The notes under the pieces were generated by a model. The model was not told the origin of the DNA and searched no databases. It saw only the letters and a list, made by a program, of their open reading frames with translations. A stretch of DNA of 64,000 nucleotides from assembly GCF_025698545.1 (NCBI RefSeq), contig NC_068569.1:12524001-12588000 (forward strand), read 5' to 3'. This document shows, piece by piece, positions 3,690-39,335 of this stretch (the stretch's first letter is position 1; each line of letters begins with the position of its first letter). Both the position numbers and the translations under genes were made by a program. The DNA comes from Gossypium raimondii. Lineage: Eukaryota > Streptophyta > Magnoliopsida > Malvales > Malvaceae.

Positions 3690-4575
3690 CTTTGATCAAG
3701 GCTTCTCCACCACAAACACAAAAAATAGGAAACTGACATCTTACTAAGTACCTGTCCTATAATTGTCTTCTCTTTTCTGGATAGAAAGTGTAATTGTTTT
3801 TCATTTTAACTATTTGTTGTCGAATCAGATAGAGACTCGACTTTAGGAAATAGGAAGCGTTTGTGATTGACAATTAGATGAGTGTGTGGGGCATATATTT
3901 TCACCAACGATATCATTCATGCATCGAGAGTCATGCTTATGCATGCATGTCGAAGCTAATCAATGATCAGCTCAGCAAGCCCAACAACTATACAAACTAG
4001 TGTTTCCAAGCTCAACAGGCCAATTAAATAAATGGCTGTTTTGTTCGTAACACCCAATGTGAGCGTATTGGACCTATGTCTCTTTTTCCATCGTCGGAGC
4101 AGTTGCATTAGATGTCGGAACAGAAAATTCACAAGGACATAACATCGAATCGGTTATATATTGGTATCAGAAATCGTAACTTTAGACAGGAACATCACAT
4201 GAATTAATTACTAGTGTGATCTGCTGTTGTGACAAAAGTTAAGCAGTTGCTGAAATGGCAGATCAAGAAAATAACATATTAATATATTTCAGCCTTTTCT
4301 AGTCAAATTTCTTATGCTATTCGAGATCAAATTGTGGACGTTACAAAGATTTGGATCGACTTTGATTTAACAGTTTCCTCAGCCTGCACTGATGGCTGAT
4401 GTAGGAAAACAGAAACGAACCACTTACAAACTTATACAATAACAAGGTCTAACAAATTGAAGTTAAAAAAAAGATCCTGGAGGAAAGATGAAAACGAAAA
4501 TGGTAGGCTGCTGCAAAATCTTAACCAGCTCTGACCATGTTGAGTGCAAGTATTTGAATGCAGCCCTCTTTATTT
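3690..4575. other. Tail-to-tail intergenic space between the GARP and DUF688 genes
   Basis: The 3' ends of two convergent genes face each other across 886 bases. The stretch presumably holds both 3' UTRs and polyadenylation signals. No ORF or RNA gene is convincing. Confidence 0.5.
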
Positions 4576-6681
4576 TTAGGTTTTGGATTGCTCAGAAAGG
4601 TGAGTTACTAGTTCCTATAAAGGACAATGAGTGTTAGTGTTTACGAAATGAAACTCATATTTCTGAAGACAATAATATCCTTGTTAAAGAATGGTGATAT
4701 TACCTCAGAATAGCGGAAATGATCATGATGCAAGTAAGAAGTTTTGACAATTGTTTCCCACTTGGTATCAGTTGCAGGTATCTTAGGTTCCTGTTTTTTG
4801 GGATAATTAAAACCAGTGCCATTGTAAGACTTTGAAAATGAATTTCTTGATGCAACTGCAGGCAGTGCACGCGAAAGCCAGGACTCCGATGGTGCTTTCG
4901 GTAGAGGAACAGGAAGAGGAGTGTAATCAGCAGAACCACCCTTAGCTTCTCCTTGATCAGCTTGACCTTTGAGATTTGATTTGTCGGAGAAAGAAGAGCG
5001 GCTGGAATTCACTGGCCCTGTGATTTCATTTTCTGATGCGCCCTTTATGTCCAAAAGGTTGGGGCCTTTTATGTCTTGAAGACAAGATTCTACACTAGCG
5101 GCTTCTTCCAGCATTCTATTCATTACTATGGTATCAGAATGTTTTCCCGTAGAGTCCACTGGGGTTTTAGTATTTGAGGAATTGGAAATTGAACTACCAA
5201 TTTTTACAGTATCTACATAGAGACACAGTGTTTTCTCATCTGCAGGGCTCAATGAATATGACCCTTGTTTGCTGCTCTGATAGGGTACTAATTCCTGGGA
5301 GTAGTTATTGCTACCTGTATACTTAACCAACATATTTGCTTTGAATTTCTCAGCGTCTTTGGGCAAACCAAGAAAGCCCCCTCCACTAAAGGGAGATTGA
5401 GGTCTCTCTCTACGATAGGAAGGAATACGAGCACTACCTGGAAGCCTCTTGTGGGGTAACCAAGTTACCATTTGCAGGTCATTTGAGCTGCTACATTGAT
5501 CCCATCTAGATAACAGCTTTTTCCCAATCTCAAGGAACCTATGGGATTGAACTCCGGCATCTGATTTGTTCTCTGGGAACCTGGAGGATTGAACTCTACC
5601 ATCCGATTTGTTGTTACAAGCAACAGCCCAATCATGCTGTTCAAATAAAAAAATCGTAAATGTATGGCAATGAATTATAATCTTTAACATTTAAAGCAGA
5701 GGAGTGATATGAAGGAAAATGGAAAGTCTCCATACTAACCTTGTCAACAATTTGGCTCTGAGACTTGATGAAGGTAGTTTTTCCTGGTTTTGCAACCTCA
5801 CAAGTAGAAGCCAACGAGGAGCGAGTCCTAACTTTTAATCCAGCCACAGGATTTAAGAGGCACATAAAGTTCATAAAGCATAACCTAGCTAACAATCCAC
5901 CAGCTGCTCTTGATAAATTACGGAAATCCTTGTACATATTGTAGTCGTCTTCTTTTGTCTCTTCATGTGGCTCATGATTATAATGTGGAATGGTAGCTAA
6001 CTCATATCTATTAACAGGTTTCCTGCCCCCAACAGCCACTTCCCTTACCTCTCTACGTTGTTCAGGTGCCGTACATTGCTTCCTTGAAGATCGAGGTGTC
6101 TTCAGAATCATTGCCTTGGCAGCAGATAAAAAGTGACTCATCTGTTGGGGATCTGTAGAGAATGTTCCTGACGGTTTTGCAACTGATCCACTTACACTAC
6201 AATTCATTGAGAATGAATCTGTTGGGGACAACGTATCAAGTGCATCCAAATAAACATCATCTTCTTTCTCCAACCCTGAGATTTTCTCATTTAAACAGTT
6301 TGATTTAGTCACATTATCATTCATAGAATATTGGGGGCTCAGCACATACTGATTTTCAAACTCACTCTCCACAGGATACTTTATGAGATCCAAAACCCTC
6401 CCTGGCGGAAGTCTGGGAGTGCCCAAAGCTTCCTTATTAGGCTGAAACTCGTGCTGGATGCCACCTTTTGCTTTCCCAGGGAACTGCTCCCATACAAAAG
6501 GAACTGCAACCGCTTCTGTTACCTGATACCAACTCACTTCCGAGGGGAGAGTATGTGCCCTTGTGGAAGGAGAATTCTCAACTATCTTTTGCTTATCTCT
6601 AGCTGAAAAAGCAAATGTTGAAGAAAGGCGCCTCACTGATAAAAGTGGTGCATTGAAATTTAACTTGCATTCCTCCATCAC
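4576..6681 (-). CDS. DUF688 family protein of unknown function
   Basis: Three exons on the minus strand: 6681-5740, 5636-4704 and 4614-4576. They join in phase 0 at each junction with GT-AG borders and give 637 residues. The family hallmark, a PFxWExxPG-type motif, is present as AVPFVWEQFPGKAK (PFVWEQFPGK at residues 61-70), and a leucine/proline stretch TPRLPPGR follows. A low-complexity Ser-rich middle leads to the conserved tail WETIVKTSYLHHDHFRYSE, which continues across the last intron as ELVTHLSEQSK. That tail justifies the 13-codon last exon. I see no signal peptide, membrane segment or catalytic motif. DUF688 proteins are plant-specific and their biochemical role is not known to me. 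Two ATGs open the frame (6681 and 6678) and either could be used. Convergent with the GARP gene. Confidence 0.88.
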
Positions 6682-25114: not shown

Positions 25115-27110
25115 TCATCTCCCTGTACGTAGTACTATTTTGGATTTCAAAGAATGGAGTTTGCAATTTTCTTCATATTTTAATGTGGTTCACTTTTAGA
25201 CATCCATCCATGAAGGTTTCTTTTTATTGATTTTCTTTAATGTTGGATTATGTATATTATGTATGTAACCTTAGAAGCAAGATTTTTAATAATGCAAATG
25301 CAAGTTTATGTGGAAATTGTGGTACTGACCTTCAGTCTTGATTATCGATTTCCATAGTCTTCAGGATTATATGAGTGTAATTTTCAAGACCTAAATCTCT
25401 TGGAACTTGTCATTGTCGTGAATGCTGATAAAAAATTTCTGGAATTTTATTTGTTTTTATCATTTATATGAAGGCAATAACTAAGAATAAATTGGGTATG
25501 AAATGAATGGGGTTCTTATTCTAAAGTGATAGCTCAATAGAATCTAATGTATTGATTAATAATAGATGTTCTTTCTTCAAAGAATATATAACATTTGACT
25601 TTGGATTTGGTACATAATTTCATATACTCACACCATTTTATTTATAAAATAATGTTTTTTATAAAATTAAAATAAATAATCACAATTGCACACTATTAAT
25701 ATGTAATATGTGGTTCACTAACAAAAACATGTACGTCTAGATATAAATATTTATAGAATAATCATATATTAAATCTAAATAAATTTAATTGATAATATTT
25801 AATTTTACTCCTAATTTAAACTGAGATTCGCTTTTAGCAAAATAATGAAATATATAAATTGGAAATTCACATGTCAGTTTCATTATTGGGAGATAAATTC
25901 TTTTCATAACTCAATAAGGAAAGAAGGAAGGGAATTTAACACTTGCTAGCACAAAACCCCATCAATAGATTTTGTATCCATCTGTTTTAAATACGTCAAT
26001 TTTTTTGGTTTGAAAAGTAATATGGGACGAGGTAGGTTTTATTTTATTTTATACATAATTGTTTGTGTTACTCCAAATTATTATTTTATCTTTGTATGTA
26101 TAAATTATAAATATGATAAAAATAAAATGACATAATATAGAATATTTTATATATTTTATGTTTAAATACTTTAATTGAAGTGGAGCTGAGGATGATAATT
26201 ATTTTTAAGATTATACGTTTCTAAATGGTGGAATAGATTGTACCAAAGATAAGGAATTTAATAATAATCGCTCCATTACCATTCCTACCATCCATTAAAT
26301 AAAGAAAGAAAAAAGTGAATTTTACATGTCATTTGTCATGAAGCTGACAGTTCATATATTGATATGAGATGGATCAGAGCACATGATGAATATCAATCTA
26401 AACATAAGATGCTTCACAATCAAAATCAAAATTTATATGTAATATTACACAATCAAAATAAAAGATATTCACGTGATCATATATGCATGCTTTAATAAAC
26501 TGGAGCCCATAATCGAAACCACCACAACAACAACAAAAATCTCATATTTTTCATAAAAATATAAGATATGAATGATTTCAAAAGTGACATTGTGAGGAAT
26601 AATAGTCCCCACATAAATCTTTTTCCACCATAGAATATAATTATAACTGAAAGTAGTACACTTGCTAGCTTGCACTAACGAAGTGGGGTTTGAGTAGGCA
26701 TATGTTGAACCATTACGAAGGAACCGGCATCCTGTAAAAGCTTATGAAAAATTGAGTTTGACCTCTACATTGCATTAATTGCTGATGGAATTTGAGTTGA
26801 GGTAGCTAGCTTCATCATCACTCTCCTATGCCTTAGTAACCATCAAACAATTATCCCCCATTTTCCATATCGATGTGTTCCTGAATCTTGAACTGCAATT
26901 TTGTTTTACTTCTGCAGTCCCACCACAAAACGGGGACCAAAAATTGGATTAGGACTTAGGGTAGATATCATATTATTGGACTGCAATCTATTTAAATTGA
27001 TGCCTTGGCATGTCAGAATTGCACATCATTTTATCCACAAAGCATGTAGTGTCTCTTTATGGGTTCATCTCGATAATAAAAATATATGAGAATCGACATT
27101 ATGAATTTTT
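25115..27110. other. 3' flank of the PADRE gene and AT-rich intergenic DNA
   Basis: Immediately after the stop is a likely 3' UTR. The remainder is AT-rich with no recognisable coding region; the ORFs at 26469-26675 and 26901-27089 match nothing I know. Confidence 0.4.
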
Positions 27111-27119
27111 TTTAATTGA

Positions 27120-28365
27120 TCATTTAACTAATTGAACTTTTTAGTCCATTTTCATTAATTGTATTAACAAGAGAATGATGTGTAGTTGAAAATTCATTAT
27201 AATAATAAATTTAGTTCTTAACTTTTAGATATTATATTAATTTAATTGTAATTTTAAAAATAACTCTCACAATTTAAAATTTTCTCTATTTGATCTTAAT
27301 CCTAAAATTTTAAGAAATATATAAAAATACGTAAATATTTTTAAATATATATATAATAATAAAATTTTAAAATATATAAAAATACTTAAATATTTTTAAA
27401 ATATAATAATTAATTTAAATTTTATATTAATATTTAATAAAAATAATGATATTAATATTAAATAATAATAAAACCCTCCTCCCTGCGTCTCTCTCCCTCT
27501 CTGTTGTTGTTCTGTTGTTGTTGCTGCTGCTATTGCAGTAGAAAACCAAATCGGGAACGTCCTTGCTTAATCAAAGAAGCTATGCAAGAACCTGTGGCCA
27601 TAAGCCCTTCTTTGCCAACAACAAATCCAGCAGCCACACAAAAATTTGAACCAAAAATCTTTACAAAGAGAGTACTTGGAGCCAATATGGAATAAGCATC
27701 CACACCATTGAGGTATGCTTTCACTTCGGGAATACCAGAACCTGCCGCTGCTGGAGCAATAAAAGCACAAAGAGCTGCAGCTGATGCTGCCAGACCTAAA
27801 TTGCAGCCAGCATATGCTACAAAAGCCTTGTAATATTTGTGTTTCAGCATGAGTTTTGTGGTGAGCAGCAGCTCGAACCCAGTCTCAACTGCTATATTGT
27901 TAAAGATACCAACTAGGCCAGTGCTTAGCCCTATAATAAGTGCAAATGCCCACCTAAGCTTGGTTTTCTACTGCAGCAGCAGCAACAGAAGAGAGGGAGA
28001 GGGGACGGTGGTGGGAGGGAGACGGGGTTATTTTTATTTAATATGAATATAATTATTTTTATTAAATATTAATATAAAATTTAAATATATTATTATATAT
28101 TTTTAAAATATTTATGTATATTTATATATTTTAAAATTTTATATATTATTTCTTTTCAATAATATTTCTTATTTTTATATATTTTTAAAATTTATTATTA
28201 TATCTTTTAAAAATATTTATATACTTTTATATATTGAATTGAGATATTTTTAAATATTGAGAATTAATTTTTTAAAATTATAACTAAATCAATATAATAT
28301 CACTAAATTTATTATTATATAACTCCATTTAACGCTTTGTTTACTCAATCAATTGAGCTGATTTT
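27120..28365. mobile_element. Long-inverted-repeat (Pack-type) element carrying a CLC gene fragment
   Basis: The left arm 27199-27549 and right arm 27960-28318 are inverted copies of about 350 bases. Both run from ATAATAATAAATTTAG at the outer side, through AT-rich sequence (TTTATATTAATATTTAATAA) and a CT-rich stretch (TCTCTCCCTCTCT), to a perfect 15-base inner match GCAGTAGAAAACCAA (27535-27549; reverse complement at 27960-27974). Weaker similarity extends outward to about 27120 and 28365. Between the arms lie about 410 bases homologous to a plant chloride channel. A gene piece between long inverted repeats is the architecture of Pack-MULE/Pack-TIR elements. The superfamily and target duplication could not be resolved. 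Confidence 0.72.
27533..27967 (-). pseudogene. Captured fragment of a plant CLC chloride channel/antiporter gene
   Basis: The minus strand stays open for about 140 codons, between a stop just upstream (TAG) and one after the fragment. It reads KTKLRWAFALIIGLSTGLVG and later LMLKHKYYKAFVAYAGCNLG. The first selectivity motif is intact (AAAGSGIPEVKAYLNG), as is AYSILAPSTLFVKIFG. The second motif, GKEGP followed by VHTGACIASLLGQGG in functional plant CLCs, is degraded here to GKEGLMATGSCIASL, with the conserved proline and histidine lost. The fragment covers only the N-terminal third of the membrane domain, with no start region, later helices or CBS domains. It resembles the plant CLC-c-type subgroup from memory. 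It probably cannot form a channel; transcription through it could produce antisense or small RNAs against a parent gene. Confidence 0.85.
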
Positions 28366-28413
28366 TCCGTTACCATAAACTCATTCCAACTTTTTTCCGC
28401 TTCCCGGCGCCCA

Positions 28414-28688
28414 ATGTCTGACGTTAAGGATTCGCCCTCACTATCAACTGCCCGTTAATGGTTCAAGAAGATTGTTGGTTCGAAGAAGCTACATCTGCCC
28501 TCATCAACGCTTGGGGTCGACGTTATCTCGAGCTTAACAGTGGGAATCTCCGCCAGACGGATTGGCAAGTGTATGAAAGAGTGGAAGGGGAGAAGCAAAG
28601 AATGCAATTTGCTAAAGATTTGGAATTGCAGAGGATGAGGATGAAGCGATCTTGGGGCCCCAGTGGGGAGGCCTATTCTTCCTCATGA
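28414..28688 (+). pseudogene. Broken trihelix (ASIL-like) transcription factor gene
   Basis: A start-like piece [14 protein letters not shown] (from 28414) stops and shifts frame. The following frame opens with [20 protein letters not shown] and continues [15 protein letters not shown], the first helices of a trihelix MYB/SANT-like domain of the ASIL type. It then jumps directly to [20 protein letters not shown] and RMRM, which looks like the C-terminal coiled coil of the same family. The rest of the DNA-binding domain and the middle of the protein are missing, so an internal deletion plus a frameshift has destroyed the gene. Lack of introns in the relic matches the usually intronless family, so nothing speaks for or against retroposition. 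It begins about 50 bases after the inverted-repeat element ends. Confidence 0.75.
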
Positions 28689-30571
28689 AAACATTATCTA
28701 GATTGATTGAAATGTATATTTTCAATGAGTTGTATGTTGGATTATTAAAACAGAAATATAGTTAATTTGTTAAATGATACTATATTGAGATAACTGAGAG
28801 ACTCTACCCGCATTGTGCTTCTAACCACCATATATATGACTCAAATTGTTGCGTCTTATGTTTCACAAAGAGAAGTTGAAATCATTAAAAAATGTTTGTA
28901 GCTTCATTCGTGCCTGTGATATAGTCGTACAATAGTTAATCTTCAATTATGCTGCTATGCTTTTCTCCTTCAATGCCATAGCATTGTTGCCTGTTTTCTT
29001 TCAATGGTTTATGTATCCATATAAGTTTTAGCATTATCTGCTTCCTAACTAACAACCAATTTTAATGTTTGCCTTGCAATATAAAGTTAATTTGATTCAT
29101 GCTGCTTTCAAGCTTGTGTTGACTTAGTTGAATGATTGTAATTATGGTCGTTTGTGGAGTCCAGGACTTGAGAAAGGCATTTGGATATACTTTAGTCTCC
29201 CATTTCTATTGAATTCTACTAAAATCCTTCAACTTTGCCATCCACGCCACTTGAAATCAGCTACAATTGAGCACTTCTATTTCACATATCTTGGGAGCAT
29301 TAATTTAATTAATAGAATCAACTATTAATTTGTGATCTTGCACCATTGTTTCCAACAAACCCTACTCTTCCATCGATAATATAATAACAAGCTAACTGCA
29401 ATCTAATCCAGCTTTGCTTTTAAACAACTGACAAAAAAGCTTCACGTAGTAAAATGTTTATTTATATAATATTATCCTTAATTAATTTATACGTCTAATT
29501 CATCAGACGTGATAACTCTATAGAACTTACAAACTATTGAGAACTAACAACCGACACAAATTTAATTAAGCTTTGCTAAGTAAGACAAGGGCATTAATTG
29601 ATCATAATGCAAGTAGTGCTTCATATTATACAAGGAAAGGCGCCAGAGATTCAGAAACCAGTGCTTAATGCCTACTTGTATAGTAGTTGTAGTGCTAAAT
29701 TTAACTTCATACATACTCGTTGCCTTGCCTTGCCTTGCCTTATAAACCCTTCCCCACCACTCTGCCATGCATGTTTTCTGAATGCTCATCATCCTGCACA
29801 AATCAATATTCACAAAATACAGAAACGTCTAACGTTAATGGTACTTGACACACAGAAAATGGAATATAAATCATCAACTACTCTTCTACCATTAAGTAAC
29901 TAAACCAAAGAGGGAATATAAAGAAATATTCACAGAATAAACTACAATATTGTTTGTTAATTTAATTTAGCGTGCTTCTATACTTAAACTGGTAATTAAG
30001 AGGTTGTTAAAACTGGCAACCAAGAGATAAACTTTTTCTTGCTTCGTTAGAATTAAGAGGATGAAGGAAGAGATTGTCTCATCCATCTTTGCCCCATATT
30101 TGCATGGATGTAGTTATACCCATAACCATTACACACTGCTTCATGCGGTTTTATCTCACTTGCTTTACTAGGTTTTTCTTTTTTGTATTTAATGTTATAA
30201 AATTATATATTTTAAATTTATTCTTGAATATAATTTGGGCAGATATAGTCTTTGTTTTATGAATCATATAATAATTCTAGTATATATATTTAGCATATGT
30301 ACTAAAATTATAACAATGATACAAAAAATATGGTAAGGTAAATTAGTACTTTTACAAATCAAAGTGGGGGCAGTGAAGCAAGTATTTATTAATGGTCTAC
30401 TCATGCATTTTTTTTTAAGAAACCCATTCAGAATGGATTGATATAAAATTCATTGAATGGTTTAAACTTTGCCATCTTGTGATAGATGTAACTAGAAGAA
30501 AGGCAAACTAGTAAATTGATTTTTTTTCACACAGATTATTGCTCAACCCTTCTATAAATTATTCTAGTGTT

Positions 30572-37737: not shown

Positions 37738-38290
37738 AGACCTATTCATGGGTTAGGCTACCCGTCCAAGTCAAAAAACCAGTCCGAAATTTGGAAGAGT
37801 TTGGAAAAAAATATTAAGCCCGAAAAATGAACTTGAGAAATAAAATTAGGCTCATTATATGGGTCGGACTCGGACTTGGACATTCAAGGCCCGTGCCTGT
37901 CCCAACTCAACCCATTTTTAAGTTTATAATATTTTATATCAGTTATTTTTATATATTGTGTAATTTATAACACATACAAAAATAAACTTATACTAAATAT
38001 ATAATACTATTCTAATGTGAACATTAAAATAATGTTAAGATAATTATATAAAAAATTTCAATAAATAAAAAAAACATTAAGTTAAAACAATATAAATATT
38101 TTTTAAAAATTAAAAGAATAATATTGACATACTTAAAATGAGTTTAGGTTAGTCTTTTACAAATATTGACAAATTTAGGCAAAATTTTAGGTCCATATTT
38201 CAGGTCAAGTGGAGTTTGTACAATCTTAAAGTATTACAATATCATGCTTAAGCCTATCTCAAACCCAACCCAACCCATGATATTAATTCT
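37738..38290. mobile_element. Decayed non-autonomous repeat with 'CATGGGTTAGGC...CCAACCCATG' ends
   Basis: The left end TATTCATGGGTTAGGC and the right end CCCAACCCAACCCATGATAT are inverted relatives. The interior contains GGGTCGGACTCGGACTTGGA and GGCCCGTGCCTGTCCC, the purine/pyrimidine-skewed style seen in widespread plant MITEs. Non-coding; boundaries approximate. Confidence 0.45.
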
Positions 38291-38294
38291 ATAT

Positions 38295-39335
38295 GAATCT
38301 AGTATAATAATAAATTTAATCCTCAACTTTTAAATTTTATATCAATTTAGTCATAATATTAAAAAATTAACCCCAAAATTTATAAATATTCTGAATTTAA
38401 TATTAATTCTAGAAAATTCAAAAAAAAATATACACTTCCTCCCACTGCCATCCCCGTTCCCCTTCCTCCCTCTCCCTTAATTTAACCATCTTCCAAACTT
38501 TAATTAAAGCTAAGAACTTGAAATTGAAGAAATAAAATTAGAATCATGAAAGCAACCAAAAAATAAAGCTAGAAAGGACAGTTCAGAATTCAAATCTTCC
38601 TGTATGTAATAATCAATTTTGTAGTCTTAAGTCAAACCCTGTATATATATAGCACTCTCTTTCCTTTTTGCAGCTAAAACCCTGTTCAAACCATAGTTTT
38701 TTATGTTTGTGAAAATAAAACCATCCAGTTCTCTCTCTGAAATGGGTTTACCCAAAAAGTCCCTCTCTTTGATCTTTGTTTCATTGTTTTTGGTCACAAT
38801 CTTTGGTGGTAGGAGTGGGGGAGCTCCGATGGGGAGAGAGAAAGAGAAACGAGTGGGGAGGATTTTATTTTATATTATATTAATATAATTTTTTTATTTG
38901 ATATTAATATTAATATAAAAGTGTCATGTAGTATCTTTATGTAAAAATTTTACTAAATGTAAATACACATTAAAAATATAAAAATAAATATACATATATA
39001 AAATCTAAAAAATCTAAATTTTAAAAATATAATTTTAAAAATACAATAATTGAAAAGAAATTAGTTGAAATTAATAATATTATACAAAAAAAGTAAAATT
39101 ATAAAAATAATTTAAAATAAGGTTTGAAAATAGTTTTTATAAAATTTTAAAATGGTATTTAAATTTCAAGTTTTTTTGTCGTTACTTGAAATTTAAATAT
39201 AGATTCTTTAATTTTGTAGCATTTTTAAATTTTTATTTATTATTTTATAATAAATTCATTTTGAACTTATTTAATTTTTTATATTATATATATATTTATA
39301 TTTTTAATCAATATAATATATATAATACTAAAAGA
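38295..39335. mobile_element. Second, probably related inverted-repeat element with a captured promoter and signal-peptide fragment
   Basis: The left arm begins TATAATAATAAATTTAATCC and runs to CCTCCCACTGCC and CCTCCCTCTCCC. This repeats the order seen in the left arm at 27199-27549, including the ATTTTATATCAATTTAGTCA block. The right arm (reverse complement from about 39000 to 38805) ends TATAAAATAAAATCCTCCCC, close to the inner arm of the first element (AATAATAATAAAACCCTCCTCC). Between the arms lies unrelated, gene-like sequence. Outer boundaries and target duplication are unresolved. Confidence 0.5.
38640..38800 (+). pseudogene. Captured 5' gene fragment: TATA box, leader and signal peptide
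   Basis: Inside the second element, TGTATATATATAGC (about 38640-38653) looks like a core promoter. It is followed by a leader and by an ATG at 38742 opening MGLPKKSLSLIFVSLFLVTI. That is a basic start plus a hydrophobic core, a good secretory signal peptide. The frame then runs into the element's G-rich arm (GGRSGGAPMGREK) and stops. It looks like the beginning of a secreted-protein gene cut off by the element's edge. I do not recognise the parent gene. Confidence 0.45.

Follow-up and report, generated by a model that had tools for sequence, protein, structure and literature searches.

A fragment of a chloride-channel (CLC) gene lies between two long inverted repeats in the window, which is the whole 64,000-nucleotide stretch of the Gossypium raimondii genome that was analysed. 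The fragment occupies positions 27552 to 27959 on the minus strand. The arms at 27199-27549 and 27960-28318 are inverted copies of ~350 bp each, as the original prediction had proposed, and are about 75% identical: a local self-alignment of the arms runs over 382 columns at 75.4%, and in a genome search positions 27198-27549 matched 28319-27960 at ~75% identity (227 bits, E 4.3e-57). The inner 28 nt of the two arms are 89% complementary, and the predicted perfect 15-base inner border, GCAGTAGAAAACCAA, is present at 27535-27549 on the plus strand and at 27960-27974 on the minus strand. CT-rich inner sequence, likewise predicted, adjoins the cargo on both sides and in the left arm covers 27474-27534 (plus strand), where it is a feature of the family. 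While the arms themselves held up, their ends had to be corrected, since homology to the family extends from about 27100 to 28324. The left arm spans 27100-27549 (plus strand), with 27199-27549 pairing with the right arm and 27100-27198 consisting of outer family sequence that has no right-hand partner, and the right arm spans 27960-28324 (minus strand) with its outer end truncated. At least 86 nt are missing from the left end relative to family copy L030, and at least 154 nt are missing from the right end relative to copy L021. The window copy is a truncated relic, and because its outer ends have been lost its target duplication is not readable.

The sequence just to the right of the element, at 28414-28690, resembles a remnant of a trihelix-like (Myb/SANT-like) gene with an internal deletion, and its Myb/SANT-like Pfam match (E 0.0014) is below the cut-off. 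A relative of this remnant at C10:2932255-2933117 matches the window only from 28441 on; positions 28320-28440 have no match to it, and this relative provides no empty site.

That the cargo is a minus-strand piece of a CLC gene is borne out by its 136 stop-free codons, read from 27958 to 27551, and by a match to Pfam PF00654 (Voltage_CLC) with E = 7.9e-12; the nearest solved structures are CLC-a chains. The GSGIPE motif is intact and the GKEGP region altered, as had been noted, with the parental GKEGPMVHTGS reading GKEGLMATGS in the window. Both ends of the cargo fall inside coding sequence, and the copy is truncated at either end. It differs from the parent at 24 of the 402 aligned codon sites and by two in-frame deletions, of 6 bp at 27882/27883 and 3 bp at 27596/27597 (minus strand; positions counted by hand). 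Constraint on the open frame, which a pairwise value of 0.35 between the window cargo and the C12 parent makes it look as if there were, was rejected: over 402 sites, with two three-state sites unassigned, the branch of the window copy carries eight nonsynonymous changes and one synonymous change, and the parent branch carries four and nine, respectively. The open frame is therefore no evidence of function. Folding positions 27176-28324 as RNA places 273 of the 351 bases of the left arm in pairs with the right arm, and the z-score relative to 60 dinucleotide-shuffled sequences is -18.9. A read-through transcript would fold back on itself and leave the CLC piece as the loop; such a hairpin, a putative source of the small RNAs raised in the original prediction, is plausible from the predicted fold.

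The parent of the cargo, which the original prediction proposed to seek by nucleotide search, is a gene region of three exons at C12:287962-288766. The idea that the CLC piece is part of a nearby gene was rejected, as the parent lies on another contig than the window. In the fetched parental sequence (L010), intron 1 is at 4092-4290 (199 bp, borders GTAAGC...GTGCAG) and intron 2 at 4469-4657 (189 bp, borders GTGAAT...TGGCAG). Both are absent exactly from the cargo, leaving exon-exon junctions at 27836/27837 and 27658/27659, respectively, on the minus strand; a paralog on C11 shares both intron positions with the C12 parent. Since two introns are cleanly absent at their GT-AG borders, the cargo came from processed RNA and not straight from the gene. 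The proposed gene capture thus stands insofar as the parent is elsewhere, and plain genomic capture does not.

A DNA search with the CLC piece alone recovered only the window, a second copy, the parent and the paralog, and no further processed CLC copy was found in this assembly (all five candidates scored). At the protein level six more places match in part (all 24 candidates scored). Three distant matches (42-45% identity; on C1, C7 and C10) run across the position of junction 1; two of them contain stops, which were read through. These matches are too remote to be the source of the cargo, and by crossing junction 1 they leave room in the protein search for old processed CLC copies.

The second copy, at C12:22458756, is the same piece in a more decayed state and lacks intron 1 exactly. 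Past junction 2, some seven bases of it correspond to exon 3, with six matches, after which the sequence is unrelated. On the other side it abuts an arm of the same family, with a junction unlike that of the window copy, and no second arm was seen within the 14.5 kb examined. A direct repeat in the fetched stretch (L048, 139-1597 and 6597-8055; 1460 columns, 97% identity) ends ~3.7 kb to the left of this copy and could represent retrotransposon LTRs. Among 264 shared sites, private changes number 23 in the second copy, three in the window copy and six in the parent; C>T or G>A changes account for 15 of the 23. The contrast of 3 versus 23 (p = 9e-5 under equal rates) is hard to reconcile with one capture common to both copies, unless they evolved at unequal rates. 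Either their rates were strongly unequal, or the two CLC copies do not go back to one history. At no site does the second copy agree with C11 where C12 and the window copy both differ from it, so that an independent older capture is not favoured by the sequence comparison. That private changes differ about eight-fold between the two CLC copies is a further puzzle.

The arms belong to a dispersed family. An arm search gave at least 113 matches, on all of C1-C13 of the 750-Mb genome, with 40 of 941 candidates scored. Self-inverted arms of 114-479 columns occur in 12 of the 36 fetched copies L012-L047 (L012, L014, L019-L023, L027, L029, L030, L033 and L044), the longest pair being the 479 columns of L030; shorter inverted pairs of 55-106 columns at L013, L039 and L040 are left out of this count. 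The other 24 copies have no arm pair by this criterion, and a partner may sit outside the fetched stretch. The copies have an AT-rich body and a CT-rich inner part, and some of them have GGGTAAAYTACAC-like termini. In L012 and L033 the arms are separated by hardly any spacer, the spacer of L029 contains an extra arm-like piece, and a second family member lies in the same window at about 38290-38930. The inner-border sequence TGCAGTAGAAAACC has six exact occurrences in the genome, two of them in the window, as against three occurrences of a reversed control, and one of the four places outside the window (L071) is a clear family arm. In addition, L012 (C11:19742000) and L013 (C11:34692500) have a common left flank of ~100 bases and different right flanks, as if a larger unit that is duplicated or mobile included them. 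The inner sequences of L023 (560-1220) and L031 (1730-1920) resemble, by eye, pieces of retrotransposons.

Copies with other cargo, which the original prediction had anticipated, were found by the whole-genome arm search, and seven cargoes besides CLC were traced; the tracing excluded the spacers of L019, L020, L022, L023, L027 and L044. Between the arms of L030 is a tau-GST-like piece (Pfam GST_C, 1.8e-6) from C13:48356373-48358302 in which the two ends and the middle of a parental intron are still represented by remnants, so that this cargo is clearly genomic. The member at 38290-38930 contains pieces from the region C7:4523898-4524672, namely the beginning of a gene for a cysteine-rich secreted protein that we call PDLP-like from its translation, together with a piece from ~500 bases upstream and 69 unmatched bases between the pieces; this cargo is probably genomic and internally deleted. 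The arm pair L014 matches C8:55810852-55811188 in one piece; this cargo is LBD-like by eye only, and one of its pieces gave no Pfam match. The arm pair L021 matches C2:33056428-33056607 in one piece. Next to single arms, at L017, L018 and L035, which make weaker Pack elements, are mosaics whose pieces stem from several places, in some cases only ~10 kb away. With regard to splicing, the CLC cargo is spliced, the GST cargo genomic and the PDLP-like cargo probably genomic, and the other five are uninformative. A dispersed family of arms with differing cargoes supports the Pack reading. Given the genomic GST cargo, RNA-derived capture is not the rule of the family, and the proposed RNA origin rests on one gene in two copies.

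The element shares with Pack-MULEs long, similar terminal inverted repeats (TIRs, 100-500 bp), a host gene fragment between them, and family members that carry a different cargo. Movement of Pack-MULEs depends on the MULE (MURA-like) transposase of an autonomous relative. Pack-MULE cargo is usually acquired at the DNA level with its introns kept, a pattern followed by the GST cargo and probably by the PDLP-like cargo, and from which the CLC cargo departs. Evidence on the target duplications of 8-11 bp expected of Pack-MULEs comes from six copies with both termini recognised, in which the best 9-mer flank match averaged 6.8 versus 5.3 for mismatched pairs at offsets of up to 1, and 5.3 versus 4.4 at offset 0; the 30 mismatched flank pairs that served as the control also reach 8 of 9. 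The element is a member of a dispersed long-inverted-repeat family of the Pack type, and its placement among the Pack-MULEs, or in any other named superfamily, would be putative.

What is the mechanism by which a spliced gene piece came to lie between the arms? Our main reading, to which we assign a probability of about 0.7, is that the locus is the relic of a non-autonomous, long-TIR, Pack-type DNA transposon whose cargo descends from spliced CLC mRNA. A break between the arms would have been repaired by template switching onto a CLC cDNA or a since-lost processed copy. The loaded element may then have moved once, or the filling may have happened twice, and later loss of both ends would have left it immobile. 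The same inner border flanks the cargo on both sides and adjoins other sequence in L071, which favours a filling of the space between the arms over the insertion of a retroposon into the element. Whether the template was cDNA, the RNA itself or a lost retrocopy cannot be told from one genome. A specific form of the main reading is that a TIR element gained its cargo by RNA- or cDNA-templated repair, with a spliced messenger copied straight into the inter-arm break, and we hold this only tentatively, as a rather doubtful proposal. If it is true, class II elements could make transcripts, and not only genes, mobile as exon-exon units. The less remarkable form of the main reading, an ordinary DNA-level capture from a processed CLC retrocopy elsewhere, since lost, would require nothing unusual of the transposon and is a serious contender, though we place it somewhat short of even odds. 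It accounts for the splicing and the clean ends by known steps, and an animal precedent has been suggested, the ARF6 retrogene in MER20, for which the authors, in the available part of their account, also allow recurrent retroposition (PMC8277862); against it, the DNA search of this assembly recovered no such retrocopy.

The remaining alternatives do not involve capture between the arms. A retrotransposon may have inserted a processed CLC pseudogene into an existing element, which would explain the spliced state of the cargo. We consider such an insertion improbable, as poly(A) is absent from the cargo boundaries (27549-27552 and 27959-27960), both cargo ends lie within coding sequence, and the same inner border abuts the cargo on either side. 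Nor is there a target duplication beside the cargo: a scan for a retroposition-type direct repeat at its ends gave one 9-mer with a mismatch, within the arms only. It is more improbable still that a CLC retrocopy came to be flanked by two independent insertions of solo arm-type elements. The left arm of the window copy resembles arms elsewhere in the family no less than it resembles its partner, and the 24 fetched copies in which no arm pair was detected (with the reservation on partners made above) would be in keeping with solo arms; however, on both sides it is the 15-base border and the CT-rich inner part of an arm that adjoin the cargo, the pairs in 12 of the 36 fetched copies face inwards, and the second CLC copy likewise abuts an arm.

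A capture between the arms, the reading that we prefer, invites comparison with several known systems. The removal of introns at splice sites is a likeness to processed pseudogenes and retrogenes, whereas the lack of poly(A) and of a target duplication around the insert, the internal ends of the cargo and the enclosing transposon arms set the CLC cargo apart from them. For an element of this kind a spliced gene piece is an unusual load, and among the literature listed, at the level of titles and beginnings of abstracts, no spliced cargo was found in plant Pack elements. Positioned directly between the inner borders and accompanied by a second copy, the spliced cargo is a natural record that RNA can be the source in the end, and it makes the way in which such elements acquire gene pieces testable through the share of cargoes in this family that run intronless over splice junctions.

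In the available portions of the accounts of Pack-MULEs and TIR-MULEs, the elements have TIRs of a few hundred bases, carry pieces of host genes with cargoes that differ between copies, and create target duplications of 9-11 bp (PMC3903597, PMC3310237). The present element may work like a Pack-MULE, and differs from those described there in that its CLC cargo is spliced. The soybean CACTA element Tgm-Express1 is also a DNA transposon with host gene fragments, several in its case, which, as far as the source consulted in part describes them, keep their introns and are spliced only in the transcript (PMC1947982), whereas the CLC cargo in the window is intronless. For the acquisition of gene pieces by Pack-type elements, gap filling and fork switching have been proposed, and gap filling with template switching is the route suggested for single-copy animal Pack-TIRs (PMC8277862, in part); its extension to the cotton element is our inference. 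These animal elements include Ssk-FB4, with long and repetitive arms, and resemble the present one in having a gene fragment between inverted arms. The fillers described in the same partial account are exonic and intronic genomic sequence and one possible retrogene case, whereas the filler here, from a plant gene, spans two splice junctions.
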